Source: an uncultured Ignavibacteriota bacterium (GTDB lineage: Bacteria > Bacteroidota > Ignavibacteria > Palsa-1295). From it: a DNA stretch of 64,000 bases. Below, in pieces: positions 16,440 through 60,271 of this stretch. The stretch is from NCBI GenBank assembly GCA_903900335.1, contig CAIUMP010000053.1, positions 1 to 64,000 of the forward strand, given 5' to 3'. The notes beneath the pieces were generated by a model. The model saw only the letters and a program-made list of their open reading frames with translations, searched no databases and was not told the origin of the DNA. The position numbers and the translations under genes are program-made. Positions within the stretch are counted from its first letter, which is position 1. Every line of letters begins with the position of its first letter.

Positions 16440-17546
16440 CTATGATTGACGAGGCGCCAGCGGGACGCGCGGAAGCGCTTTGAGTTCTAACCCGCTGGTT
16501 TCACCTCTATCCAATTTCAACGCGCCGAGCATGGCGATCATCGCGGCGTTATCGGTGGAGAACAATGGTCGCGGCACAAAGAAGCGCATGGAGCGGCGCT
16601 CGCACTCCGTTCGGAATCGCGCTCGCAATTCCGAATTCGCGCTGACGCCACCGACACAGACGATGTCGCGAATCCCGTGAGATTCGGCAGCGCGCAGCGT
16701 TTTCGAAACGAGGACATCTACCATCGCGCGTTGGAAGGATGCCGCGATGTCGCGAATCAGGTCGTCCGCCACCGCCGTTGTAGCCGTGGGCTTTAGCCCA
16801 CGGTGTCTTTCCTCAACGATTGACCGTGTGCTAAAGCCCACGGCTACACCAGTTTGCTTCTTCAGCCAATATAGTACAGAGGTCTTGATCCCGCTAAAGC
16901 TAAAATCAAAATGATCCTCATTCATCATCGCTCGTGGGAAGCGAATGAAATTCGGATTGCCATCTTTCGCGAGTCGGTCCACTTCTGGTCCTGCTGGATA
17001 TCCAAGGCCAAGCATCTTGCCGACCTTGTCGAAGGCCTCTCCTGCTGCATCGTCGAGCGTTTCACCAAGGAATTCGTACTTGCCGACATCGCGAACGAGT
17101 AGCAGCAACGTGTGTCCACCGGATACGACTAATGTAATGAATGGCAACTCCGGCTTCGCTTCTTCGAGCAGCGAGCTAAAGATGTGCGCCTCAATGTGAT
17201 GCACTCCGATGAGCGGAATGTTCAGACCAAGCGACAATCCCTTCGCGAAGTTCAGCCCAACGAGCAGCGAACCCATGAGGCCCGGCGCATACGTGACAGC
17301 AACAGCAGTTAGCTCCTTGTTCGTGATCCCTGCTTGCGAGTATGCTTCTCGAACAATGGGCAGAATGCTCCGCACATGCGCGCGTGACGCAAGCTCCGGC
17401 ACTACTCCACCGAAGTTCTCGTGGAAGAATTGCGAGGATACGACGACTGATGCAAGTTCGCCATCGCGAAGAATGGCGGCGCTTGTTTCATCGCAGGACG
17501 ATTCGATGCCAAGGATCGTCCCGGTTAGCGGCATGTCGAGCTTCAC
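16440..17546 (-). CDS. tsaD: tRNA N6-threonylcarbamoyladenosine transferase TsaD with in-frame palindrome insertion
   Basis: TsaD joins threonylcarbamoyl to A37 of ANN-decoding tRNAs, with TsaB and TsaE. Seen in order: [48 protein letters not shown], the metal-binding [11 protein letters not shown] near 117, [32 protein letters not shown]-like region, [25 protein letters not shown] and [12 protein letters not shown]. Between KKQTG and [13 protein letters not shown] sit about 24 extra residues (233-256) encoded by a palindromic repeat; total length 368 versus roughly 335-345. The GTG at 17546 overlaps the uvrC stop (GTGA) and has a perfect GGAGGTGAT seven bases upstream; an ATG at 17534 is the alternative. 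This tRNA modification is essential or nearly so in many bacteria, so the gene is expected to be functional. Confidence 0.93.
   Translation of the reverse strand: [368 protein letters not shown]
16779..16848. repeat. Palindromic repeat inserted in frame within tsaD
   Basis: The arms 16779-16804 and 16823-16848 are 26-base inverted copies with one mismatch, separated by 18 bases. Each arm begins or ends with TGTAGC/GCTACA and is itself nearly self-complementary around CTTTAG. The skeleton TGTAGC-N6-CTTTAG-N6 is shared with the intergenic copies at 1000-1060 and 38921-38980, while the variable parts differ but keep base pairing. On the tsaD strand it is read through with no stop codon. Confidence 0.9.
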
Positions 17547-38908: not shown

Positions 38909-38920
38909 TGATGGTAGTGA

Positions 38921-38980
38921 CGTGTAGCGCGGACTTCAGTCTGCGCATAGGGGGTCACAGACTAAAGTCTGTGCTACACG
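38921..38980. repeat. Palindromic repeat, TGTAGC/CTTTAG family, copy 2
   Basis: Starts CGTGTAGCGCGGACTTCAGT and ends CTAAAGTCTGTGCTACACG. It shares almost all arm bases with copy 1 at 1000-1060, including the nested GACTTTAGTC-type core, and differs mainly in the loop. Confidence 0.8.
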
Positions 38981-39220
38981 GGGAGGTGGGGAGAAATTTG
39001 TGGCTTTCTACCGAATTCCTGGTCGGTTCGGGAACCGCAAAAAATTTATGGAAAGCGCTTTCTGTCCTATAGACAAAAAGCTGTAAGTTGTTGATTTATA
39101 TGAGAAGTTCATGAATCGCGAATTTACATCACACAACTAATGTGCTTGCGCGTGGTACCTCTGCTTGGTATTATGAATTGCCAATTTACACACGCACCGA
39201 AATTTGCTGCGCTATGAAAG

Positions 39221-44389: not shown

Positions 44390-47300
44390 TTACCTCGACT
44401 TGTTGACGATCATGTAGCCGATCCGAATTTTATCGCTAGTGGAGTAATTCGAGGCGCTTGTCACCGTTGGTAGCATCTTGATCCGGACGCTGAACGATCC
44501 GTTGGCAGTATTGTCAGCGTTCACGATAAATCCGGCATCGCGCGGATCAGGAGCGACTCCGTCATCCGTGAAGGCGACGACATTCACAAGTACGATACTC
44601 CCGACCTGACAGTAGCGATTGTTGATCGTCACGCTGCCCAAGTTCTGCACTGCGCCAGCGGTCGGGGCGGTAGTTGTCAGGTTGCCGGTTGCGCCAAGCG
44701 TGAACTCTACGATACCGCTAGGTCCCTGTGCCGAATATGCCGTACCACCCGTTGCGGCCTCAACGTCAGTTCCGCTGCCAGGAGCCTCCGTGGTTCGACC
44801 CATGGCAAACTCGCCGTCATTGATCTGCATCGCGACGTTGGTTTGAGAAGCGGTAGTATTTCCATTGCCAGTTGCCAGCACACCAATGGTACCGGTGTTT
44901 GAAGCCGAGGTATTGCTTGCATCACCCCATAGTCCGATAGCTTGGTTGGTTGTTGCGCTTGTGGCGACCCCAAAGACTGCGGCCATTTCATCCGTTGTTG
45001 CGGCGTTAATGCTGTGGATAGGATGCGATGGCGTGGTTGTGTTTACGCCGAGCCGCGAGTTGGTATTATCCCAAACCAGTCCGGTGGACCAACTCCAACT
45101 ACTTGCAGCTCCCGAAGTCGCAAGTAGCATATTTCCCGTCGCGACTGGCGCAGTAGCTGGAAGCGTGTAGACGATACTTCCGGAAGAGTAACTCAAAGGC
45201 GCCTGGAAAGCGGAGTAATACGTTGTTGCAGAGTAGGTGTTAGCAGAGTTAGTTTGGAAGAATCGCAGCTGACGCGGACGTCGGCCACCTGTATTTCCTA
45301 ACCAGAGATCAACATTCCCAAAGTAGGCGATGCTGTCATAGTTTGAGACATCAGCGCCATAGGTATTTAGCTGTCCATCCCCGGAGCTATTAAATCCAAA
45401 ACTAAAGCTTCCAAGAGTTAGTACAGAGCCGCCGGGGATCGCGGAATAGGAACCGGCGATCGAGTTGCGTTCTCCACCGGCGATCGTAGCGTCGAAGCCA
45501 TTATTGCCGATTCGATTTCCGCGGCCACCGCCAATCGCAGCGTAGTTCGCACTAGAGAAGATATAGGAAGAGTCCCCTCCGCCAATGGTCGCCATGCTGC
45601 TGTACACATAATTTGCATTACCAGCATATCCTCCTCCTGCAATCGTCGCGCCCCCAATGCCTGCACCAACGGTGTTCCCCTGATACCCGCCAATGATATT
45701 GGGGCCAAGCGTAGTAGGTTCATACCGCATCACCCGCTTCGAGCCCTTGTTTGCCGCGTCTCCGTCATAGACGTGAATCTCAAAAGCGATGTTATCCGTG
45801 GTGCCGAGATAATTCGTCCCCGCCGTGGTTCCGGTGTTGCCCGTTAGTCCCCAGCCCGCGCCTGACGCGTTTGACCATCCGAGAGTCACTGCAAATGGCC
45901 CGGCCCCTGTCACAGATGTAGCTGCAAGCACCTGATTCGTCGAGGGCTGCGAGGTTGGAAGAATGTAGTTAATATCGGCAGACTGTCCACTTCCAGCAGC
46001 GAAACTGGAGTAGTTTGTGGAAGCACCTGGGAATGTGACTCCGCCATTCTGCGGTTCGTAAAAGCGCAGCTGGCCTGAGGTATTATTGGTATTCCCAATC
46101 CACAGGTTCACATTCCCGAAGAAGGCCGTGCTGTTTGCATTGACGGCGGCACTATCTGCCGAGCCAGTCCCGGCATGGAATCCGAACGAGTGCGTTCCGG
46201 TCAGCCGTAAGTAACCTCCGCCAGCAATGGCGGAGTTCGCTGCGCCGATATAGGTGTTCACTCCGGAGTGAATAGACGATGAGACTGCGCTTGAGGTAAT
46301 AGTATTGTATTGGCCTCCGACGATTGAGGAGTAATCGCCATAGACTGTATCATGTCCACCGCCAACCACAGCAGCGGCTGGATGTATCGTGCCACCCGCA
46401 AGATTTGAAATGCCGCCTCCAATGAAGGAGTTCAGATAGGACGCATTGCCCTGACCACCTGCGACAGCACCATCAGAACCGAGCGACAGATTGTGTGCAC
46501 CACCTCCAACGAAACCGCCGAACGCTGTAATAGTATCGTCGAAACCACCACCGATGAACGAATGATCGCCAGAGATGTATCCATTCTCGCCCGCGGTTAT
46601 ACCGCTTACTTGGTTTGTGATCTTGTTGTGGTAGCCACCAGTGATTGAACTGTAGGTTGCTGTTGACACGATGGAGTCGTATGCCCCGGCTCCATTGAAC
46701 GCATAGTCAGCACCAGCATAGTTATATCCGCCCGCAGCCACAAAGGAGCCGGCAGCGGTGCTCACGACATTGTTGTCACCGCCCCCGGCAATAAAGCTTG
46801 GGGCGATCGCGGTAGGCTGAATACGGAACGCACGGTTATTATTCACGCGTATTGTGAAGGCGACGTTATCCGTGGTGCCGAGAAAATTGGTGCCATCGAC
46901 CGTACCGGCATTCCCCGTTAAGGCCCATCCACCACCGGACGGGGTTGCCCAGCCAAGCGTTATGTTGTAAGGGCCGGCGCCTGTGATGGCGGTAGCGCTG
47001 AGAGCTTGATTCGCCGTTGGCTGCGAAATGGGGAGTGTATAGTTTATTACGGCGGATTGTGCACCCGCAGTAAGGCTGGAGTAAACCCTCGTCGCATACG
47101 AGGTACTCGAACTGGCTGGGTAAAATCTTAAGCCGCGCGCGACGTTGTCGGTGTTGCCGAGCCAGAGATCCATATTGCCGAAGTACGCGAGATTAGAGAG
47201 CGCTCCGAGGTTTATAATACCTGCGAGGGCACTCCCACCTGGCACATTCATTCCAAAGCTGCTTGCTCCGACCGTAAGTGAGTCGCCGCCTGGAATAGCG

Positions 47301-50300
47301 GAGAAGTTTCCCGCAGTATTTCGAAGACCGCCTCCAATCACTGAATGACTGCCATTGGCCGAGCCATATTCACCGCCGCCGGTCGCGCTGGCAATCCCGC
47401 CAGCAGTATTGAATTGCCCTCCGGAGATCGCGCTGTAGGTTGCGGAAGCGGAAGAGGTGTTTGATGCACCGCCACCGATCACGCTATTCCCGGCACTCGA
47501 GGAGTTGCCAGCGCCACTTCCGATAAACGAATTGGCCGATGAAATAGCGTTGCCAGTACCGCCGGCAATCGTGGAATAATTTCCCGTAACGGAATTTCCA
47601 AATCCGCCGCTGACTGCGGAGTAGCTGCCGCTGAGTCCACTTGTCGAGCCACCACTGATGACGGAGTATGTACCGGTTACGGTATTTGATGTGCCGCCAC
47701 TGATGGCGGAATAATTTGCCGAAACCGAATTCGTTGCACCGCTAACTCCACCACCCGCGATGATCGCTCCGACCGCACCGCTAGTGACTGCATTACCCTG
47801 ATATCCCGCAATGACATTTGCGCTCGTTGCATTCGGCTCGAACCGCATCACGCGCTTCGATCCTTTGCTGGCCGCATCACCATCAAAGACGTGAATCTCG
47901 AACGGTTGGTTGTCGGTGGTCCCGAGATAATTGGTCCCTGCGGTTGTGCCGGTGTTGCCGGTAAGTCCCCACGCGTTGCTGGTTGGTGCTGCCCAGCCGA
48001 GTGAAACTGCGTATGGGCCCGCTCCGGCAACTGCCGTTGCAGTAAGAACTTGATTCGCGGATGGCTGCGCGGTTGGCAAGGTATAGTTAATTGTCGTTGC
48101 ACCTTGTGCACCGGCGACAAAACTTGATATACCTGCTGATGTTCCCTGGAATAGCAAAGAGTCTGCAGCATTCGCACCTGTGCGCGAAAGAAGCAGATTA
48201 CCGTTCTCCACATTGAGTTTTTGCTGTGGCGTTGTCGTGCCAATTCCAACTTTCGCATCCGAGCTCGCAGAGTTCATTCCAGCGATGCTGCCGAGCACTA
48301 CACTGTTGCTTTGCCCGACGAGTGCGTTCGCGCCGATGGCAGTCGCGTTTGAGAGATTGTTCGCGCCAACATTCGCGTAATGCCCGAGCGCGCTGTTCGT
48401 TGAGCCTACAATATTAGATAACAGTGTACTATCACCAACGGCGGTGTTTCGGCTACCGGTGGTGTTGTTCACAAGGGAGTTTTGGCCTGAGGCAGTGTTG
48501 TTGCTTCCTGTTGAATTTGAATAGAGCGATTGGTATCCATACGCGGCATTGGCACTTCCCGTTGTGCTAGCATACAGCGCTTCATATCCGCTAGCGGCGT
48601 TCTGATTTCCCGATGTATTGGAATAGAGAGTGCGGTAGCCATTGGCCGTATTGCCATCTGCGTTGTTATGATTCAATGCATCAGAACCAGCGGCGGTATT
48701 GTAGCTTCCAGTTGTGTTGTTAACGAGCGCATTGTATCCGTTTGCGGTATTGTTGTTCCCCGTTGTGTTGAAGTAGAGTGCCTCCGCTCCGTTTGCGCTG
48801 TTGTAATAGCCTGTCGTGTTCGAAGAAAGTGCAGATGCTCCGCTCGCGTTATTGAGAAAGCCTGTCGTGTTTGCAAACAGTGCCTCCCAGCCCACGGCTG
48901 TGTTCGCTGTTCCCGTCGTGTTGTGCGAAAGAACTCCATACCCAAAGCCTGTTCCCCCTGTGGCTGCAACTTGTATCAATCCCGACTGAACATTATTTGC
49001 ACGGAATTGGAGATCGACGTTGTCGATCGTTCCGAGGAAATTCGTCCCCGCGGCCGTGCCGGTATTCCCTGTAAGATTCCACGCAGTGTTGCCACCATTC
49101 GCAGTCCAACCGAGCGTGACGGCATACGGCCCTGTACCTGAAATCGCTGTTGCGGTGAGGACCTGATTTGCAGTCGGTTGCGCCGTTGGAAGTGTATAAT
49201 TAATATCTGTCGATTGCGCTCCGGCTACGAAGCTTGAAAAGTTTGTTGATGCACCGGGGAAGGCGACACCACCATTTTGCGGCTCATAAAATCGCAATTG
49301 GCTAGCTGTGTTATTCGTATTACCGAGCCAGAGATTGACATTCCCGAAATACGCAGTGTTGGCAGAAGTTACAAAGGCACTATCGGCGGAGCTGCTTCCG
49401 GCATTGAAGCCAAAGGAGTTGGCGCTGGCAAGTCGCAAGTATCCGCCGCCCGTGATCGTAGAATAATTTCCACCGATGTAGTTATGGACGCCTCCGCTAA
49501 TGGTCGAATAATAAGCATTGACCGTATTATAGACGCCACCAGCAATAGTAGCATCGTTACCCGTGATATTATTCACACCACCACCAGAAATTGTCGAGCT
49601 AGTCCCGTTTACATGGTTAAGTCCCCCACCTCCAACCGTCGCTGCCGCGCCGCTTACTGTATTGTAATTTCCGCCACCAATAGTCCCTTCGTTTGCGGAG
49701 GAACTCACGGTATCATAGGCACCGCCAGCAATAGTGCCATCGGCTGCGTTCACATAATTGAACTCACCGCCACCGATTGTCCCAAGTTGTCCGGCATTAT
49801 AATTATCCGAGCCACCACCGATCACGCCGCCAGTGTTATTGGTGGTATCCCTGGCCCCGCCGCCAATGGTACTATAGTTTGAATTCGTCCCAATATAATT
49901 TCGATATCCGCCGGCAATCGCGCTATTGAATGCAGCAATAGTACTTCCATCTCCTCCACCAATCACCGATAACTGCCCTGCAACTGAATTGTTTGTTCCA
50001 GATCCGAGAAAACTGTTCGCGCCGGAAGCAACTTGTGTAGTGGCAGTTCGAGTGTTCTGCAAATCGACGGCACTTGCTCCCCGGGCACTTCCACCGGCAT
50101 CCCGCTGAATGCTCCCGTTCGGATTTAGAATAATGCTATTATTCACCGTCGCGCCATTCTTAACCTGAATCTCCATCGCCTGATTATCGGTCGTCCCGAG
50201 AAAATTCGTCCCGGCTGTCGTCCCGCTATTACCGGTCAGATTCCATGCGGTGTTGCCGGAAGCGGCGGCCCAACCGAGCGTAACGGCATACGGGCCGGTG

Positions 50301-53300
50301 CCCGCGATGGCTGTTGCAGTGAGAACTTGGTTTGTTGTCGGCTGTGCAGTGGGAAGAGTATAATTTATGGTGTTAGACTGCGCGCCTGCCATGAAGCTCG
50401 AATATTTTGCGCCGGCATACGTCAGGCTTGAGTTTGGCCCATAGAATTGGATCTGACGCGGACTGTTGTCGATATTCCCTATCATCATATTTACTCCGCC
50501 GAAATAAGCGACATTTCTATACGATGATGAGGAAAGATCGACAAGTGCTGCGCCGCCAAGTGGTGTACCGTTGAATCCGAAGCTCCATGGAGCAAGTTTC
50601 AAGTGTCCGCCGCCAGGGATTGCGGAAGAAGTATCAGCGGTGTTGTAGGCACCTCCGCCAACTGCTGCGTACGACGAGGCGTTGTTGTATGTACCACCGA
50701 GGAGTGAGCTGTAAGCACCACGCGTGGAATTGCCCTCTCCGCCGACTATTATTTGGTATAGATCTGAGGACTGGGAGCCTGCGGTGTTACTCGCTCCGCC
50801 CCCGACAAATGAGCCCGTGCCACTCGCCAAATTAAACTCCCCACCACCAACAAATGTAGATATGTCGGCGGCACCGTTGTGATTACCACCCACCACTGCA
50901 GCATAATTCCCACTTGCAGTGTTCGTCGAACCTCCACCCACGACAGTATAATAACCAGCAAAGTTTTGCATGCCGCCCCCAATGAAGGCTGATGTTCCGG
51001 CTGTGTTCCTTGCACCTCCCGCAATCGCCGCGTATGAGGCCGTCGCGGCATTGGAGTCGCCTGCATATCCGCCCCCTCCGATAAAAATACCAACCGCTCC
51101 GGACGCCGCATTATTGCCGCTGTATCCACCAATGATATTGGGGCTTGTTGCCGTTGGTTCAAACCGCATCACGCGCTTGGAGCCTTTATTCGAGCCATCA
51201 TTGTCGAAGACATGTATCTCGAATGGTTGATTGTCTTGGGTGCCAAGATAATTAGTCCCAACCGTCGTTCCCGCGTTACCCGTGAGATTCCACGCCGTGT
51301 TGCCGGAGGCCGCTGCCCAGCCGAGCGTGACGGCATAGGGGCCGGTGCCGGTAATTGCGGTCGCGGTGAGGACTTGGTTAGTTGTCGGTTGAGCCGTCGG
51401 CAAAGTATAATTAACCGTCGTCGCTCCCTGATTGCCTGCGACGAAACTCGATGATCCGGTTGAAACGCCTTGCATCCTGAGGGTGTCGGCCGCGCTTGCA
51501 CCGGTGCGCGAAAGAAGGAGATTACCGTTTTCAAGATTTATCTTCTGTGATGGCAGTGTGGTACCGATGCCCACATAACCTGCGCTTGACACACGGATTG
51601 CTTCGGCACTGTTCGTCTTGATCACGAAATCCTGAGCATCTGTTGTACCAAGAAAATTTGTGCCGGCAGCTGTTCCGGTGTTACCTGTAATTGTCCAATT
51701 ATTGGCGGCAGGGCTGTTGGTAAGGATTACATCGCCGCTGGTATTTACCGAGAGGACAAGGCCGTTGGAGGTGAACGCCATAGCAGACTGCTGAGCCGAC
51801 GTGCCCGAAAAATCAGAGAGGCGCAGTCCGCTTGTTGGATTACGCGTAACGGTGATAGTCCCATTTGTAATTGGGAAGGATGGCGCGGAACCAGGTGCAA
51901 CTCCTCCGCGCAAAATATCGACCTTATTTTGGGGAGCCCAGGGGAGCGCGGCATAATGAGGAGCACCGTTGTCCGGTGGAATTGTCCCAACACCGATGTC
52001 GCCACCGGCGTCAATTCTCACGCCGGGGACAAACTCGAACACTCCACTGGGTGCCTGCCCGCCACCAAAGGAAATGAAGTCGGCTCGTGGAGAAGTGGTT
52101 GCGTTATCGCCGAGCATGACGCGCAGCTCAGAAACATCATTGCCGAGGTTTTTGCGTGCTATCCAAAACGGATCACTGTTGTCATTGTCGAAACCGGAAA
52201 AGCCAGTGCCCCCTGAGAAGATGAGCCCATTGCTATCGGGTGGATACTGATTGGTCGGCAAGTGTGTGCCGGAGCCTTGCGGTCCGATGCGAATATTGCC
52301 TCCGGCAAGCATTGACATCCTCTCGACGCCATCAGTCTTGAACATCATCGCATTGTTGTCCGTGGTTCCGAGGAAATTCGTCCCGAAGGTTGTTCCGCTG
52401 TTGCCCGTGAGATTCCATGCGTTACCTGTAGCCGCGCCCCATGCGAGATCAACGGAGTATGGGCCAGTACCCGTCACTGCATTTGCTGTCAGGACTTGGC
52501 CAACCGTTGGTTGAGTCGTGGGCAAGAGGTAATAGATATCGGCAGTCTGCACGCCAGTCGAAAGCGAGGAGAAGTGAGTAGAGGCCGCCGGGAAACTCGG
52601 ACCACCATTTTGTGGTCCATAGAGACGGAATTGACTTGATACGTTATCCGTATTGGCTAGCCAGAGATTCGTATTGCCAAAGACCGCAACCCGCCCTGAG
52701 GAAACACTAATAGGATTTTGACCGACGGCACTTTCTCCGTTGAAGCCGAATGATCCCGTGCCGGAGAGCGTAAGGCTGCTGCCTCCGGGGATAGCGTCCT
52801 GAGCGCCGGACGCAACGTTGCTCGAACCTCCACCCACTGCGGAGTAAGCGTCCGCGGTGTTGGCTGAGCCACCCGCGACCGTTCCATAGGATCCCGTCGC
52901 CTGATTTGCAGCACCGCCGCCGATGGACGTGCTGATCGCACTCGCCGTATTTCCAGTGCCACCAAGTACAGATGAATATTGTCCACTTGCGATATTGCTT
53001 CCGCCGCCAGCCACTGTTGCGTATGCTGCACTCTGAAGCGAGCCAGCATTATCTCCAGCGCGGTTATTTGTGCCGCCGCCGATGAAGCCCCAATCGTCTG
53101 TGACCGTATTGACGAAGCCGTTGAGACCACCACCGGCGATCGTTGCACCGACTACACCGCTTGTTACCGCGTTACCCTGATAGCCGCCGATGAGATTTGC
53201 ACTTGTTGCGTTGGGCTCATATCGCATCACACGTTTTGAGCCGCGTGCATTGCCATCGCCATTATAGACGTGGATCTCGAACGGTTGTGCATCGGTGGTG

Positions 53301-54604
53301 CCGAGGAAGTTTGTGGGCACACTGGTGCCGCTGTTTCCGGTGAGAAGCCAGCCGGCCGTACCAGTATTGCCAATGGTGATCGCACCTCCGGCTGTGGTGA
53401 TGCTGATGCCAGAGCCTGCTGTTAGTGTTGCGGTTGAAATGGGATTGATGCCGTTGCCGATGAGGATTTGTCCGGCAGGAATATTGCTCACGCCAGTGCC
53501 GCCATGCACTACGGGAATGACACCGGTGACATCTGTCGTCAAATCAATCTGCCCGACGGAGAGCACTCCCGCATTGTTGCTTTTGACGATTCCCTGACCG
53601 AAGCCATTTACGGAAACTGTCCCGGTTCCAGGGTTCATCACGATGTTATCTGCGCCAGTGCCATCGCCGAGTGTTGTGGTGCCTGTGATGTTGAGCGATG
53701 CAGCGGAGAGTGCGCCAGTCGCGGATTCCAGCACGGTTGGATTTTCGACCCACGCTGTTCCATTCCATCGAAGCGTGCTATTCAGAATGGAGCCCGGTGG
53801 GAATGCTCCTCCCACGCTTTCATTCGCTACTGTCCAAGAGGTGCCGTTCCACTTCAGGATTTGTCCCGGCGTGGCTCCCGATTGATTCAGTTTTGTAAGC
53901 GTGACGGAGCCATCTGCAAGTTTTGCGGTGGTGATGGCATTATCAGCAACGCCAATGTCCGCATTCGGTCCATTGCCGTTGGTGATCGCGATGGTCTTGT
54001 CTTTGCTTGTAACGGATTGAAAACCATTCGCTATGGCTGGCTTTGCGTGAATGGAAATCGTGTTGCCAATTTCGGTGATCGTCGTGATGCTGTCGCCAGT
54101 GATGTGCAGAGCGCCTGCGAGTTCATTAATGCTTGTGACGACGCCGTGTGCATCGGGCGTCAGTCCTTCGGCGAGTTCGGAGATGTGGGAAGCGAGTGCG
54201 TATGGTGCGCTTGAGAGAGCGGAGCGCGGCGAGAGTTCGGCTTCGCCATCAATACTGACGCCGAGATAGTAGGGATGATCAAAGCGAAGGGTTGCCGGGA
54301 ATGGTGTGAGGGAGCCGATCTGAATGTTGAATATGCCACCGGTGATGGTAGTCGTGTGAGTTTCCTGATACAACTGCTGCCCACCAGAGAGCGAGTCGTA
54401 GAACGCAACGCGTAGAACGTGCGGGCCGCTCGCGGGCTGACTCCCACTCGTTACAGCGCCTTGATAGCTGATGGTGCGCGGCGTTTGCGCGTTCGCAGAA
54501 AGCACGAACGCGATCAGCGTCAGGAGCAGGAACAACAAATAGATTATGAGCCGATTGGTCGTCATCATCGTCGAGTTAGTGCTGTGCCGTATCGAGTGTA
54601 CCAT
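44390..54604 (-). CDS. Giant modular repeat protein (about 3,404 aa), tail-fibre/YadA-head-like
   Basis: One uninterrupted frame of over 10 kb. After a signal sequence (LIIYLLFLLLTLIAFVLSANA) comes a beta-sandwich head: RTISYQGAVTSGSQPASGP, GGIFNIQIGSLTPFPATLRF, HPYYLGVSIDG and LSPRSALSSAPYALASH. Nine modules follow, each opening with a variant of LTGNSGTTxGTNFLGTTDNQ. Most contain a block of short GGG-x-x-N repeats like YadA/Hep-Hag heads (SFIGGGFDDTITAFGGFVGG) and a SFGFN ... AYFGNVNLWLGNTDN ... YTLPTAQPTxNQVLTAT segment. One module carries eleven 17-residue repeats. The C-terminus (VGSIVLVNVVAFTDDGVAPD ... RIGYMIVNKSR) is neither a T9SS sorting domain nor a membrane anchor, so its export route past the outer membrane is unclear. 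Start could also be 54568 or 54565. It lies 58 bases after the anti-sigma gene and is probably in that operon. Confidence 0.85.
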   Translation of the reverse strand: MVHSIRHSTNSTMMTTNRLIIYLLFLLLTLIAFVLSANAQTPRTISYQGAVTSGSQPASGPHVLRVAFYDSLSGGQQLYQETHTTTITGGIFNIQIGSLTPFPATLRFDHPYYLGVSIDGEAELSPRSALSSAPYALASHISELAEGLTPDAHGVVTSINELAGALHITGDSITTITEIGNTISIHAKPAIANGFQSVTSKDKTIAITNGNGPNADIGVADNAITTAKLADGSVTLTKLNQSGATPGQILKWNGTSWTVANESVGGAFPPGSILNSTLRWNGTAWVENPTVLESATGALSAASLNITGTTTLGDGTGADNIVMNPGTGTVSVNGFGQGIVKSNNAGVLSVGQIDLTTDVTGVIPVVHGGTGVSNIPAGQILIGNGINPISTATLTAGSGISITTAGGAITIGNTGTAGWLLTGNSGTSVPTNFLGTTDAQPFEIHVYNGDGNARGSKRVMRYEPNATSANLIGGYQGNAVTSGVVGATIAGGGLNGFVNTVTDDWGFIGGGTNNRAGDNAGSLQSAAYATVAGGGSNIASGQYSSVLGGTGNTASAISTSIGGGAANQATGSYGTVAGGSANTADAYSAVGGGSSNVASGAQDAIPGGSSLTLSGTGSFGFNGESAVGQNPISVSSGRVAVFGNTNLWLANTDNVSSQFRLYGPQNGGPSFPAASTHFSSLSTGVQTADIYYLLPTTQPTVGQVLTANAVTGTGPYSVDLAWGAATGNAWNLTGNSGTTFGTNFLGTTDNNAMMFKTDGVERMSMLAGGNIRIGPQGSGTHLPTNQYPPDSNGLIFSGGTGFSGFDNDNSDPFWIARKNLGNDVSELRVMLGDNATTSPRADFISFGGGQAPSGVFEFVPGVRIDAGGDIGVGTIPPDNGAPHYAALPWAPQNKVDILRGGVAPGSAPSFPITNGTITVTRNPTSGLRLSDFSGTSAQQSAMAFTSNGLVLSVNTSGDVILTNSPAANNWTITGNTGTAAGTNFLGTTDAQDFVIKTNSAEAIRVSSAGYVGIGTTLPSQKINLENGNLLLSRTGASAADTLRMQGVSTGSSSFVAGNQGATTVNYTLPTAQPTTNQVLTATAITGTGPYAVTLGWAAASGNTAWNLTGNAGTTVGTNYLGTQDNQPFEIHVFDNDGSNKGSKRVMRFEPTATSPNIIGGYSGNNAASGAVGIFIGGGGYAGDSNAATASYAAIAGGARNTAGTSAFIGGGMQNFAGYYTVVGGGSTNTASGNYAAVVGGNHNGAADISTFVGGGEFNLASGTGSFVGGGASNTAGSQSSDLYQIIVGGEGNSTRGAYSSLLGGTYNNASSYAAVGGGAYNTADTSSAIPGGGHLKLAPWSFGFNGTPLGGAALVDLSSSSYRNVAYFGGVNMMIGNIDNSPRQIQFYGPNSSLTYAGAKYSSFMAGAQSNTINYTLPTAQPTTNQVLTATAIAGTGPYAVTLGWAAASGNTAWNLTGNSGTTAGTNFLGTTDNQAMEIQVKNGATVNNSIILNPNGSIQRDAGGSARGASAVDLQNTRTATTQVASGANSFLGSGTNNSVAGQLSVIGGGDGSTIAAFNSAIAGGYRNYIGTNSNYSTIGGGARDTTNNTGGVIGGGSDNYNAGQLGTIGGGEFNYVNAADGTIAGGAYDTVSSSANEGTIGGGNYNTVSGAAATVGGGGLNHVNGTSSTISGGGVNNITGNDATIAGGVYNTVNAYYSTISGGVHNYIGGNYSTITGGGYLRLASANSFGFNAGSSSADSAFVTSANTAYFGNVNLWLGNTNNTASQLRFYEPQNGGVAFPGASTNFSSFVAGAQSTDINYTLPTAQPTANQVLTATAISGTGPYAVTLGWTANGGNTAWNLTGNTGTAAGTNFLGTIDNVDLQFRANNVQSGLIQVAATGGTGFGYGVLSHNTTGTANTAVGWEALFANTTGFLNNASGASALSSNTTGYYNSANGAEALYFNTTGNNNTANGYNALVNNTTGSYNTAAGSDALNHNNADGNTANGYRTLYSNTSGNQNAASGYEALYASTTGSANAAYGYQSLYSNSTGSNNTASGQNSLVNNTTGSRNTAVGDSTLLSNIVGSTNSALGHYANVGANNLSNATAIGANALVGQSNSVVLGSIAGMNSASSDAKVGIGTTTPQQKLNVENGNLLLSRTGANAADSLLFQGTSAGISSFVAGAQGATTINYTLPTAQPSANQVLTATAVAGAGPYAVSLGWAAPTSNAWGLTGNTGTTAGTNYLGTTDNQPFEIHVFDGDAASKGSKRVMRFEPNATSANVIAGYQGNAVTSGAVGAIIAGGGVSGATNSVSANYSAISGGTSNTVTGTYSVISGGSTSGLSGSYSAVSGGFGNSVTGNYSTIAGGTGNAISSANSFIGSGAGNSSSAGNSVIGGGASNTSSASATYSAISGGQFNTAGGIASATGGGEYGSANGSHSVIGGGLRNTAGNFSAIPGGDSLTVGASSFGMNVPGGSALAGIINLGALSNLAYFGNMDLWLGNTDNVARGLRFYPASSSTSYATRVYSSLTAGAQSAVINYTLPISQPTANQALSATAITGAGPYNITLGWATPSGGGWALTGNAGTVDGTNFLGTTDNVAFTIRVNNNRAFRIQPTAIAPSFIAGGGDNNVVSTAAGSFVAAGGYNYAGADYAFNGAGAYDSIVSTATYSSITGGYHNKITNQVSGITAGENGYISGDHSFIGGGFDDTITAFGGFVGGGAHNLSLGSDGAVAGGQGNASYLNSFIGGGISNLAGGTIHPAAAVVGGGHDTVYGDYSSIVGGQYNTITSSAVSSSIHSGVNTYIGAANSAIAGGGYLRLTGTHSFGFHAGTGSADSAAVNANSTAFFGNVNLWIGNTNNTSGQLRFYEPQNGGVTFPGASTNYSSFAAGSGQSADINYILPTSQPSTNQVLAATSVTGAGPFAVTLGWSNASGAGWGLTGNTGTTAGTNYLGTTDNIAFEIHVYDGDAANKGSKRVMRYEPTTLGPNIIGGYQGNTVGAGIGGATIAGGGYAGNANYVYSSMATIGGGDSSYIFSSANYAAIGGGRGNRIGNNGFDATIAGGERNSIAGSYSAIPGGSVLTLGSFSFGFNSSGDGQLNTYGADVSNYDSIAYFGNVDLWLGNTGGRRPRQLRFFQTNSANTYSATTYYSAFQAPLSYSSGSIVYTLPATAPVATGNMLLATSGAASSWSWSTGLVWDNTNSRLGVNTTTPSHPIHSINAATTDEMAAVFGVATSATTNQAIGLWGDASNTSASNTGTIGVLATGNGNTTASQTNVAMQINDGEFAMGRTTEAPGSGTDVEAATGGTAYSAQGPSGIVEFTLGATGNLTTTAPTAGAVQNLGSVTINNRYCQVGSIVLVNVVAFTDDGVAPDPRDAGFIVNADNTANGSFSVRIKMLPTVTSASNYSTSDKIRIGYMIVNKSR
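48365..48922 (-). repeat. Eleven tandem 17-residue repeats within the giant gene
   Basis: The 186 residues encoded here divide into eleven units of 17 residues (one of 16), consensus N-T-T-G-x-x-N-T-A-x-G-x-x-A-L-x-x, for example NTTGYYNSANGAEALYF and NTTGNNNTANGYNALVN. At DNA level the unit is 51 bp. Such left-handed coil-like repeats are found in YadA heads and tail-fibre-type proteins. Confidence 0.85.
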
Positions 54605-57331: not shown

Positions 57332-60271
57332 ATGCCTGAACTACTCGATATAGCTATTCCCTCAGTGCGACTTGATATCGCTCGTCTCGAAGCCGAACTT
57401 CGCGCACGCACCACCGCCGAAGTGCGATTCGATGCCGGTTCGCGTGCTCTTTACGCAGGTGATGCATCGAACTATCGGCAAGTCCCGATCTGCGTTGTAA
57501 TTCCAAGAACGATTGAGGATGTGATCGCGACGGTCGCAACAGCGAAAGCGCACGGCGCACCAATACTTAGCCGCGGCGCGGGCACGAGCATTGCAGGGCA
57601 GTGCTGCAACGTAGCCGTCGTTATGGACTTCTCGAAATATCTGAACAAGATCATCGAGATCGATTCTGTGCGCCAGATAGCGCGTGTTCAGCCCGGAGTT
57701 GTGCTCGATGATTTGCGAAATGCCGCCGAAGAGTTTGGATTGACGTTCGGTCCCGACCCTGCAACGCATCGCTGGTGTACGCTCGGTGGGATGATCGGGA
57801 ATAACTCGTGCGGAGTGCATTCCATCATGGCTGGCAGGACGGTTGATAACGTCGAGGCGCTCGATGTGCTGTTATACGATGGTACGCGACTAACCGTGGG
57901 AAAGGACTTCGTCCAAGGTACGGATCACCATGCGAGCGACGGCAGGGCAGCCGAGATCAATCGAAGTCTCAAAACAATCGCAGAGACTTACTCAGGTGAA
58001 ATTCATCGCACCTTCCCGGATATTCCTCGCCGTGTATCGGGATATTCTATTGATCAACTACTTCCCGAGAACAGCTTCCATGTTGCTCGCTCACTCGTCG
58101 GTTCAGAAGGGACCCTTGTAACGATTCTGGAAGCGACGGTTCGGCTGATTCCAAGTCCGAGGAAGCGAGTGCTGCTTGTTGCGGGGTTTGATGATATTTC
58201 GACAGCGGGTGATTGTGTGCCGATGGTGATGAGCCACAAGCCGATTGGTCTTGAAGGCATGGATCGTCGATTGACGAACGCGATGGTCAAGAAGCATCTG
58301 CATCCCAAGCAGCTTGCGATGATGCCAGGTGGGGAGGGATGGTTGCTCATCGAGTTTGGCGCGGGCAGTGCGGAAGTTGCCCACCAAGCGGCAGAGGAGC
58401 TTGCGAATGAGTTGAAGCGCGATAAGCATCTTGTTGATCTCAAGATCTTCGATGATCCCGCTGAACAAAAGTTGATTTGGACGGTGCGGGATTCGGCGCT
58501 CGGTGCTGTCTCGCGAACGCCGAGTGAGAAGGACAATTGGGAGGGATGGGAGGATTCTGCCGTACCACCAGCGAAGATCGGGCCGTACTTGCGTGACTTC
58601 CGCAAGCTACTTGACATGTTTGGATATAGCGGCGCGGTCTATGGTCACATCGGTGATGGTTGTATGCACAACCGCATCGACTGGGATCCGAAGAGCAAAG
58701 AAGGCATTGCGACGTGGCTTGAGTTTGTCGATGAAGCGACTGATCTTGTGCTGAGTTACGGTGGTTCTATCTCCGGTGAGCATGGGGATGGTCAAGCTCG
58801 CGGGGCGTTGCTTCCGAAGATGTATGGCCCGAAGATCATGCAGGCATTCGAGGAGTTCAAGACGATCTGGGACCCCGATTGGAAGATGAATCCCGGCAAG
58901 TTGATTCGCCCGAATGGGATTGGCGACAATCTTCGATTCGGTGCGGACTACAACCCGACGCAAGTCAAAACGCACTTCGAATTCCCGGACGATGATGGCA
59001 GCTTCTCGCGCGCGACGGAGCGTTGCGTCGGCGCGGGAGTGTGCCGAAAGGAAGACGGCGTGATGTGTCCAAGCTACATGGCAACACGCGATGAGGAGCA
59101 CGTTACGCGAGGTCGTGCACATCTCCTCTTCGAGATGATGCGGGGTGATTCACCCATTACTGGTGGCTGGAAGGACGAGCAGGTAAAGAACGCGCTGGAT
59201 CTGTGCCTTGCATGTAAAGGTTGCAAGGGAGAGTGCCCCGTGCATGTCGATGTCGCAACGCTGAAGGCGGAGTTTCTTTCACATTATTACGAAGGTAAAG
59301 TTCGTCCGCGCGCCGCTTATGCGATGGGATTGATCTACCAAGCATCGAAGGTTGCATCGCGCTTCCCTACGCTTGTCAACCTTGTGACACAGTCTCCACT
59401 GACTCGCTCCATCGCGAAGAAGCTCGCCGGAATTCATCCCGATCGAACTATCCCGAAGTTTGCGAAGCAAACGTTCAAGAGCTGGTTCTTTTCGAACTCC
59501 CCCACCTCCGATAGGAGGAGGGGGCTGGGGGGTGGAGCAGTTAGCAACGAGAGACAGGTAATCCTTTGGGCTGACACCTTCAACAACCACTTCCATCCTG
59601 AGACAGCCATCGCAGCAGTCAAAGTATTAGAAGACGCGGGCTTTGCAGTGAAGGTGTATGAAAAGTCCATGTGCTGCGGACGCCCACTCTACGATTGGGG
59701 AATGCTAGAAAAAGCGAAAAAGCAATTGGCGGAGATTCTCGATGTGGTGAAGGAGGATGTCGCAGCGGGGATTCCAATTGTTGTGCTTGAACCAAGCTGT
59801 GCCTCCGTGTTCCGCGATGAGCTGACAAACTTGTTCTCGAAACGGGAAGAGGCAAAGCGATTGAGCGAGGGGACATATCTTCTCGGCGAGTTCTTGGAGA
59901 AGTTCGCACCGGAATATCTCACTTCGCGTAGGTCGGGCGTCCTCCCCCGAGATTCCGCTCTTGTTCAATTGCATTGTCATCATCATTCCATCATGGATCG
60001 GGATTCTGAATGCTCTGTGCTTCGCAAGAATGGAATCGACGCCGAACAATTGGATACTGGATGTTGCGGCATGGCAGGTGCATTTGGGTTTGGCGAAGAG
60101 CATTACGACATCTCGCAGCAGATCGGCGAGCTGAAGCTTTTCCCGAAAATCCGGTTAGGGTCGGAAAAGCAGATTATCGTCGCGGATGGCTTCTCGTGCA
60201 GAGAACAGATCGAGCAGGGGACGGGGAGGAAGACGGTGCACTTGGCGGATGTGCTGGCGCGTGGATTGTAA
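57332..60271 (+). CDS. FAD-linked/Fe-S 2-hydroxyacid dehydrogenase (YdiJ/GlcD-GlcF fusion type)
   Basis: A 979-residue fused enzyme. FAD-binding half (~40-270): ICVVIPRTIEDVIATVATA, ILSRGAGTSIAGQCC, GPDPATHRWCTLGGMIGNN, GSEGTLVTILEATVRLI. FAD-oxidase C-terminal domain (~270-540): VYGHIGDGCMHNRIDWDP and GGSISGEHGDGQARG with flavin/metal-ligand His. Two iron-sulphur clusters: CVGAGVCRKEDGVMCPSY and CLACKGCKGECPVHVD near 565-640. Two CCG domains: EKSMCCGRPLYDWG and LDTGCCGMAGAFGFG. Relatives oxidise D-lactate, glycolate or D-2-hydroxyglutarate and pass electrons to the quinone pool. Length is close to E. coli YdiJ (about 1,018). An extra Pro/Gly/Arg-rich stretch near residues 722-736 is encoded by a palindrome. 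Its stop lies four bases from the stop of the convergent subtilase. Confidence 0.88.
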   Translation: MPELLDIAIPSVRLDIARLEAELRARTTAEVRFDAGSRALYAGDASNYRQVPICVVIPRTIEDVIATVATAKAHGAPILSRGAGTSIAGQCCNVAVVMDFSKYLNKIIEIDSVRQIARVQPGVVLDDLRNAAEEFGLTFGPDPATHRWCTLGGMIGNNSCGVHSIMAGRTVDNVEALDVLLYDGTRLTVGKDFVQGTDHHASDGRAAEINRSLKTIAETYSGEIHRTFPDIPRRVSGYSIDQLLPENSFHVARSLVGSEGTLVTILEATVRLIPSPRKRVLLVAGFDDISTAGDCVPMVMSHKPIGLEGMDRRLTNAMVKKHLHPKQLAMMPGGEGWLLIEFGAGSAEVAHQAAEELANELKRDKHLVDLKIFDDPAEQKLIWTVRDSALGAVSRTPSEKDNWEGWEDSAVPPAKIGPYLRDFRKLLDMFGYSGAVYGHIGDGCMHNRIDWDPKSKEGIATWLEFVDEATDLVLSYGGSISGEHGDGQARGALLPKMYGPKIMQAFEEFKTIWDPDWKMNPGKLIRPNGIGDNLRFGADYNPTQVKTHFEFPDDDGSFSRATERCVGAGVCRKEDGVMCPSYMATRDEEHVTRGRAHLLFEMMRGDSPITGGWKDEQVKNALDLCLACKGCKGECPVHVDVATLKAEFLSHYYEGKVRPRAAYAMGLIYQASKVASRFPTLVNLVTQSPLTRSIAKKLAGIHPDRTIPKFAKQTFKSWFFSNSPTSDRRRGLGGGAVSNERQVILWADTFNNHFHPETAIAAVKVLEDAGFAVKVYEKSMCCGRPLYDWGMLEKAKKQLAEILDVVKEDVAAGIPIVVLEPSCASVFRDELTNLFSKREEAKRLSEGTYLLGEFLEKFAPEYLTSRRSGVLPRDSALVQLHCHHHSIMDRDSECSVLRKNGIDAEQLDTGCCGMAGAFGFGEEHYDISQQIGELKLFPKIRLGSEKQIIVADGFSCREQIEQGTGRKTVHLADVLARGL
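59499..59524. repeat. G/C-rich palindrome inserted in frame in the FAD/Fe-S dehydrogenase gene
   Basis: CCCCCACCTCC GATA GGAGGAGGGGG forms a ten-pair stem with one A-A mismatch, followed by GGGGGGTGGAG, which is a second, imperfect complement of the 5' side. It is read as NSPTSDRRRGLGGGA, a sequence out of character with the well-conserved flanks (KSWFFS before, RQVILWADTFNNHF after). Confidence 0.75.

Follow-up and report, generated by a model that had tools for sequence, protein, structure and literature searches.

An in-frame palindrome in a dehydrogenase gene of an uncultured Ignavibacteriota bacterium is assigned to the BoxC/triplex-motif repeat class, with a DUF559 nuclease as candidate mobiliser

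The short hairpin inside a FAD/Fe-S dehydrogenase gene of this bacterium is best explained as a solo, non-autonomous copy of a BoxC/PIT/TM mobile element whose mobiliser is a DUF559 nuclease, an activity that is inferred; we put the probability of this reading at roughly 0.7. The hairpin lies in a stretch of 64,000 nucleotides, referred to here in its entirety as the window. Judged by its sequence, the element represents a new family within the known BoxC/PIT/TM repeat class, one that inserts in frame; its triplex folding here is inferred. The original prediction, which saw in it a second kind of palindrome that had entered a gene without breaking it, is supported with corrections, and the element amounts to much more than another odd palindrome, being placed in the BoxC/triplex-motif class with DUF559 as its candidate mobiliser. 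The features concerned are as follows.

57332–60271, + strand: host gene, YdiJ/GlcD-GlcF-like FAD/Fe-S dehydrogenase, 979 aa, unbroken reading frame
59497–59537, + strand: solo copy of the 39–42 nt palindromic triplex-motif element, CTCCCCCACCTC-loop-GAGGAGGGGG-CTG-GGGGGTGGAG
59499–59509, + strand: C-rich stem CCCCCACCTCC
59510–59513, + strand: hairpin loop GATA, which differs among copies
59514–59524, + strand: G-rich stem GGAGGAGGGGG, complementing the C-stem except at A59504/A59519
59525–59527, + strand: 3-nt spacer CTG, from G-stem to tail
59528–59537, + strand: tail GGGGGTGGAG, which mirrors the G-stem and has T facing A (motif definition, PMC4666352)

The 979-aa reading frame contains the Pfam domains FAD_binding_4, FAD-oxidase_C, Fer4_8 (residues 563–639) and CCG (752–827), and the protein shares 66–72% identity with its orthologues within the genus. 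Coordinates, reading frame and Pfam matches all agree with the claim that a G/C-rich hairpin sits in frame between the Fe-S and CCG domains, where it is translated as ..NSPTSDRRRGLGGGAV... The extent first given for it, 59499–59535, was too short: the hairpin is present at that place, but the feature runs from 59497 to 59537 and includes a G-rich tail. The hairpin proper, CCCCCACCTCC-GATA-GGAGGAGGGGG (59499–59524), has an 11-bp stem with a single A.A mismatch (59504/59519) and is directly followed by the G-rich CTGGGGGGTGGAG, which ends at 59537; the conserved unit spans 59497–59536/7. In an intrastrand triplex of the purine motif, the tail GGGGGTGGAG could serve as third strand. Taken alone, the hairpin folds only modestly better than shuffled sequences (z −1.9), which is unremarkable for such a composition, and 100 dinucleotide shuffles of the window gave no match to it. 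Chance is excluded by its status as a repeat and not by its folding energy.

A search of the genome for further copies, suggested with the original prediction, returned a dispersed family. The 4.0-Mb genome has 22 matches to the 21-nt right half of the hairpin, with no more than three mismatches allowed, and none to the reversed pattern used as a control; the full hairpin has one further copy, on contig C42, with one mismatch. The family thus totals at least 22 copies of a 39–42 nt unit that consists of a C-rich stem, a loop, a G-rich stem, a spacer of 2–3 nt and a tail mirroring the G-stem, and the aligned copies give CTCCCCCACCTC-loop-GAGGAGGGGG-CTG-GGGGGTGGA. Among the 19 copies with clear edges the unit is 39 nt long in 16 and 40–42 nt in the remaining three. 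None of these 19 shows a target-site duplication, direct repeats of ≥3 nt being absent from their edges, and the element does not meet the classical criteria for MITEs of DDE transposons (terminal inverted repeats together with target-site duplication). The fourth position upstream of the unit (−4) is C in 17 of 19 copies (flanks of L003–L021) and bases five and six of the right flank are rich in C, which may reflect either a target preference or element sequence that has gone unrecognised.

In-frame residence in many genes was observed directly: 19 of the 22 copies are in frame, with the open frame continuing on both sides, and most of their hosts have a clear Pfam match. The hosts include KBL, UbiE, the large subunit of ExoVII, two SpoU methylases, MazG, a carboxyltransferase, RecQ, YdiJ, a radical-SAM/TRAM protein and a glycosyltransferase, while one amidohydrolase and one DUF4062/NACHT protein hold two copies each. 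The other three copies are intergenic (L007, L016) or ambiguous, at the start of an ORF (L008). Several different frames, on either strand, are used among the copies, which speaks for spread at the level of DNA rather than selection for a peptide. Of the 27 readable copies in the sister genome G003, 17 are spanned by ORFs of 200 aa or more, one of these copies being in sequence resembling valyl-tRNA synthetase; since 76% of random positions in those loci would also fall inside an ORF of that size, what is distinctive is the frame kept by genic copies and not their location within genes.

An empty site was observed for one gene. The KBL linker is 27 nt shorter in seven orthologues than in the present genome, the element replacing about 12 nt of linker. 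The linker that holds the element in the window gene is hypervariable, measuring 25 aa in G003, 24 in G004, 30 in G005, 26 in G006 and 26 in G000, and 14 aa in more distant relatives. In this gene the element seems to have replaced tolerant linker sequence rather than simply lengthened it. The G003 linker carries a related element of the same class in the opposite orientation, which is independent support for insertion, though the exact junctions cannot be read in so variable a linker. Hairpin-free orthologues with the same linker length and residues had been named as grounds for refutation, and this was met in part: the hairpin-free G006 linker is equally long, but its residues are quite different. 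At that position the G006 orthologue (L031) has a CTCTACC tandem repeat in place of the hairpin, indicating that the linker tolerates different kinds of sequence gain.

Two explanations would do without mobile DNA. That the in-frame copies are selected protein linkers, or convergent low-complexity sequence rich in Pro and Gly, is favoured by linkers of similar length in hairpin-free orthologues of the window gene; however, it is the DNA that is conserved and not the peptide, near-identical DNA recurs in unrelated genes and also outside genes, and the KBL orthologues lack the element altogether. Conservation of DNA across reading frames and strands refutes this explanation, and we give it next to no credence. 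Very improbable as well is a function as terminators or regulatory structures, with repetition merely incidental. They do form hairpins, but most copies lie within coding sequence, no Rfam family matched the element, and for the E. coli motif PMC4666352 cites earlier tests in which neither promoter nor terminator activity was found.

The element meets the general definition of the triplex-motif (TM) class, namely a C-stem of 6–15 nt with at most one mismatch, a loop of 1–6 nt, a G-stem, a short second loop and a mirror-symmetric, G-rich third strand: in the window copy these are an 11-nt stem with one mismatch, a 4-nt loop, a 3-nt spacer and the mirror tail. It shares with BoxC/PIT/TMECO (Holder et al., 2015; PMC4666352) the order of C-stem, loop, G-stem, 3-nt spacer and mirror G-tail within about 40 nt, as well as dispersal, occasional inverted pairs and a copy number that varies strongly between strains. 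The strict BoxC/TMECO consensus, CCCTCNCCC N3-6 GGGNGAGGG N3 GGGNGAGGG, is not met, since the window C-stem is CCCCCACCTCC where the E. coli motif has CCCTCNCCC, and the element is therefore filed in the general TM class only. Triplex-type covariation was observed among 34 distinct stems around DUF559 genes, in which A in the stem is answered by A or T in the tail in 75 of 82 cases and G by G in 87 of 92; overall agreement between stem and tail is 95%, compared with 68 ± 3% when tails are shuffled. As a sequence pattern this matches the rules of purine-motif triplexes, and triplex formation as folded DNA has been demonstrated in vitro for TMECO only (PMC4666352).

In contrast to E. coli K-12, where copies are always intergenic, most copies here lie in frame within genes. 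In this they resemble the Rickettsia palindromic elements (Ogata et al., cited in PMC10969869), which are likewise found in frame and translated in unrelated genes. Those elements are about 150 bp long and encode a conserved peptide, whereas the present one is 39–42 nt and its copies use several frames, on either strand; it satisfies their criterion of in-frame residence in many unrelated genes (19/22) and not that of a ~150-bp element with a conserved peptide.

The nuclease proposed as mobiliser matches PF04480 (117.7 bits) and the structures PDB 3hrl (E 8e-29) and PDB 3r3p (E 6e-8), and its residues D51, E62, D64 and H68 are invariant, which meets the criterion for a PD-(D/E)XK/Vsr-like nuclease. 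Its genes are flanked by elements across phyla. Strong flanking inverted repeats were present at 37 of 76 DUF559 loci, drawn from an 80-locus scan of the genome collection queried with a four-member subset of the DUF559 alignment, and at none of 283 shifted controls. Among 100 DUF559 loci from many phyla, a hairpin of the element type stood on some side of 89 and on both sides of 61, the corresponding counts in 135 control windows being 8 and 0; about 11 of the 100 had no element, and arrangements varied (inverted, direct, pairs). According to Holder et al. (2015; PMC4666352), no transposase or integrase was ever seen close to triplex motifs, and they reported no mobility gene by the repeats, unlike the situation here. 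None of the open-access papers naming DUF559 that seemed most relevant connects it with palindromes, though a report in a subscription journal could exist; as far as that literature shows, the link is new, and it can be tested directly.

Units of DUF559 with its ends were observed at non-homologous sites. In the genome under study a DUF559 domain is fused in frame to RecQ and stands between two element copies in inverted orientation, and the ends of this unit match dispersed solo copies in the same genome; RecQ orthologues in the genus lack the fusion, and related genomes have neither element nor DUF559 at that site. L070 and L076 occupy unrelated sites, and the homology between them sets in exactly with the element's first base, at its outer edge; in L086 and L090 homology stops at the end of the tail. 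With these two pairs and RecQ, the criterion for a mobile unit (unit and ends at non-homologous sites, with empty sites) is met. Other units are located at rnhA, within a methylase-like protein and between what look like cas1 and cas2. The palindrome-flanked unit between cas1 and cas2 occurs in two sister species (L066, L068) and is likely an old shared insertion. At L061 (G018, contig C84) a full unit with both palindromes in frame lies in an uninterrupted 839-aa ORF resembling a DNA methylase, an arrangement that is intein-like without known splicing. At L071, L224, L089 and L195 DUF559 is flanked by repeated bipartite pairs of elements, the spacer being TT/TTA in one member and C-type in the other, which recalls the inverted pairs of type A and type B reported for E. 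coli.

The elements might instead spread by host repair, replication slippage or another transposase, with DUF559 as a homing endonuclease that invades existing copies and for that reason appears flanked by them. We regard this as unlikely without dismissing it. PDB 3r3p is deposited as 'Mobile intron protein', DUF559 has been placed in the EDxHD homing family (PMC9403480), and some units lie within arrays of several elements (L089, L071). Moreover, two members of the genus, G001 and G002, have 10 and 19 elements and no detectable DUF559, from which it follows that elements can outlast DUF559 or do without it; copy number in the genus does not track the number of DUF559 genes (G004 has three DUF559 and two elements). 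The element counts were made with a degenerate pattern and its reversed control rather than with a covariance model, since the stems are too short and the G-runs misalign. Against homing, the two ends of one unit resemble each other far above chance and the RecQ site in relatives has neither element nor DUF559; that homology between two units stops at the outer edge of the element fits both models. The resemblance to the homing type of 3r3p extends to a shared nuclease superfamily, by sequence, and a link to mobility, but DUF559 is associated with no intron or intein, has palindromic ends and is sometimes fused in frame to a host ORF without known splicing. Still less plausible is a RAYT/REP system, in which the palindromes would be REPs mobilised by Y1 transposases (RAYTs, PF01797). 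The genome has six PF01797 matches and REPs are also short palindromes; both systems combine a small nuclease-type gene with solo and gene-flanking copies. RAYTs, however, are HUH (Y1) transposases and DUF559 is a PD-(D/E)XK (Vsr-like) nuclease, and the palindromes at the RAYT genes here (CACCGGAGCTAAAGCTCCGGTG, CCAGGGGTAGAG..., TAGCCCCCGGTG...) are not of the form of a hairpin plus mirror tail. A RAYT/REP origin was rejected, the flanks of all six PF01797 loci having different palindromes.

The window holds other repeats. An in-frame palindrome, TGTAGCCGTGGGCTTTAGCCCACGGT...ACCGTGTGCTAAAGCCCACGGCTACA (16779–16848), lies inside the 368-aa ORF of tsaD and resembles the GCTAAAGC palindromes at the Y1-transposase locus L060, a likeness that makes it probably a RAYT-type REP, as far as sequence can tell. 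It is unrelated to the window hairpin, as had been claimed, and two kinds of palindrome are indeed found in frame inside genes here. A further dispersed REP-like family is a CAGACTAAAGTCTG palindrome whose arms are GTGTAGC/GCTACAC, with copies at 997–1063 and 38918–38982 in inverted arrangement. A long stretch of degenerate tandem repeats with a spacing of ~1.05 kb (45426–53354) probably encodes, to judge by the repeats alone, a large repetitive surface- or fibre-like protein.

In E. coli the DUF559 gene is ycjD, between sapF and fabI, and BoxC copies lie 3′ of it. In a spread sample of chromosomes, ycjD-positive strains had 13–28 BoxC matches (median 19, n = 37) and ycjD-negative strains 1–17 (median 5, n = 21), with 12–17 in some of the latter (Mann-Whitney p 1.2e-9). 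The correlation is confounded by phylogroup, and thus counts as few independent events; ycjD is typical of phylogroups A/B1/C (PMC12817139). The sapF–fabI interval could not serve as a clean empty site, since in ycjD-negative strains sapF is followed by other genes, for an MFS transporter and for efflux. BoxC was reportedly first described in the 1992 paper on envM (fabI), which is among the references of PMC4666352.

Under the preferred reading, of a mobile element with DUF559 as mobiliser, the autonomous form would be a unit of ~0.4–0.65 kb in which a DUF559 PD-(D/E)XK nuclease gene is bounded by element copies, often inverted. The nuclease would recognise the hairpin or triplex ends and cut, and whole units and solo ends would then spread. 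That DUF559 moves the elements is inferred, as are its enzymatic activity on the ends, the chemistry of insertion and its recognition of folded (hairpin or triplex) DNA. No PD-(D/E)XK nuclease is known to act as a transposase by itself, which counts against DUF559 in this role. Genic copies would persist where the net difference in length is divisible by three, since the element has few stop codons on either strand and encodes a short, loop-compatible peptide rich in Pro, Ser, Gly and Arg; the in-frame bias is inferred to come from selection rather than targeting.

On balance, we favour the view that DUF559 and triplex-forming palindromic ends constitute a distinct class of bacterial mobile element, widespread across phyla and driven by a Vsr/homing-like PD-(D/E)XK nuclease in place of a transposase, of which solo ends are the orphan BoxC/PIT/TM repeats and which rewrites proteins in some lineages through in-frame insertion. 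BoxC, PIT and triplex motifs have been known since the 1990s, in hundreds of bacterial genomes, without a known function or mobility gene. A nuclease family with the motif at its ends makes the origin of the motif directly testable, with ycjD of E. coli K-12. In-frame residence means that a tiny selfish DNA adds segments of ~13 residues to core enzymes, and the in-frame copies amount to a natural protein-insertion experiment, comparable to that of the Rickettsia palindromic elements.
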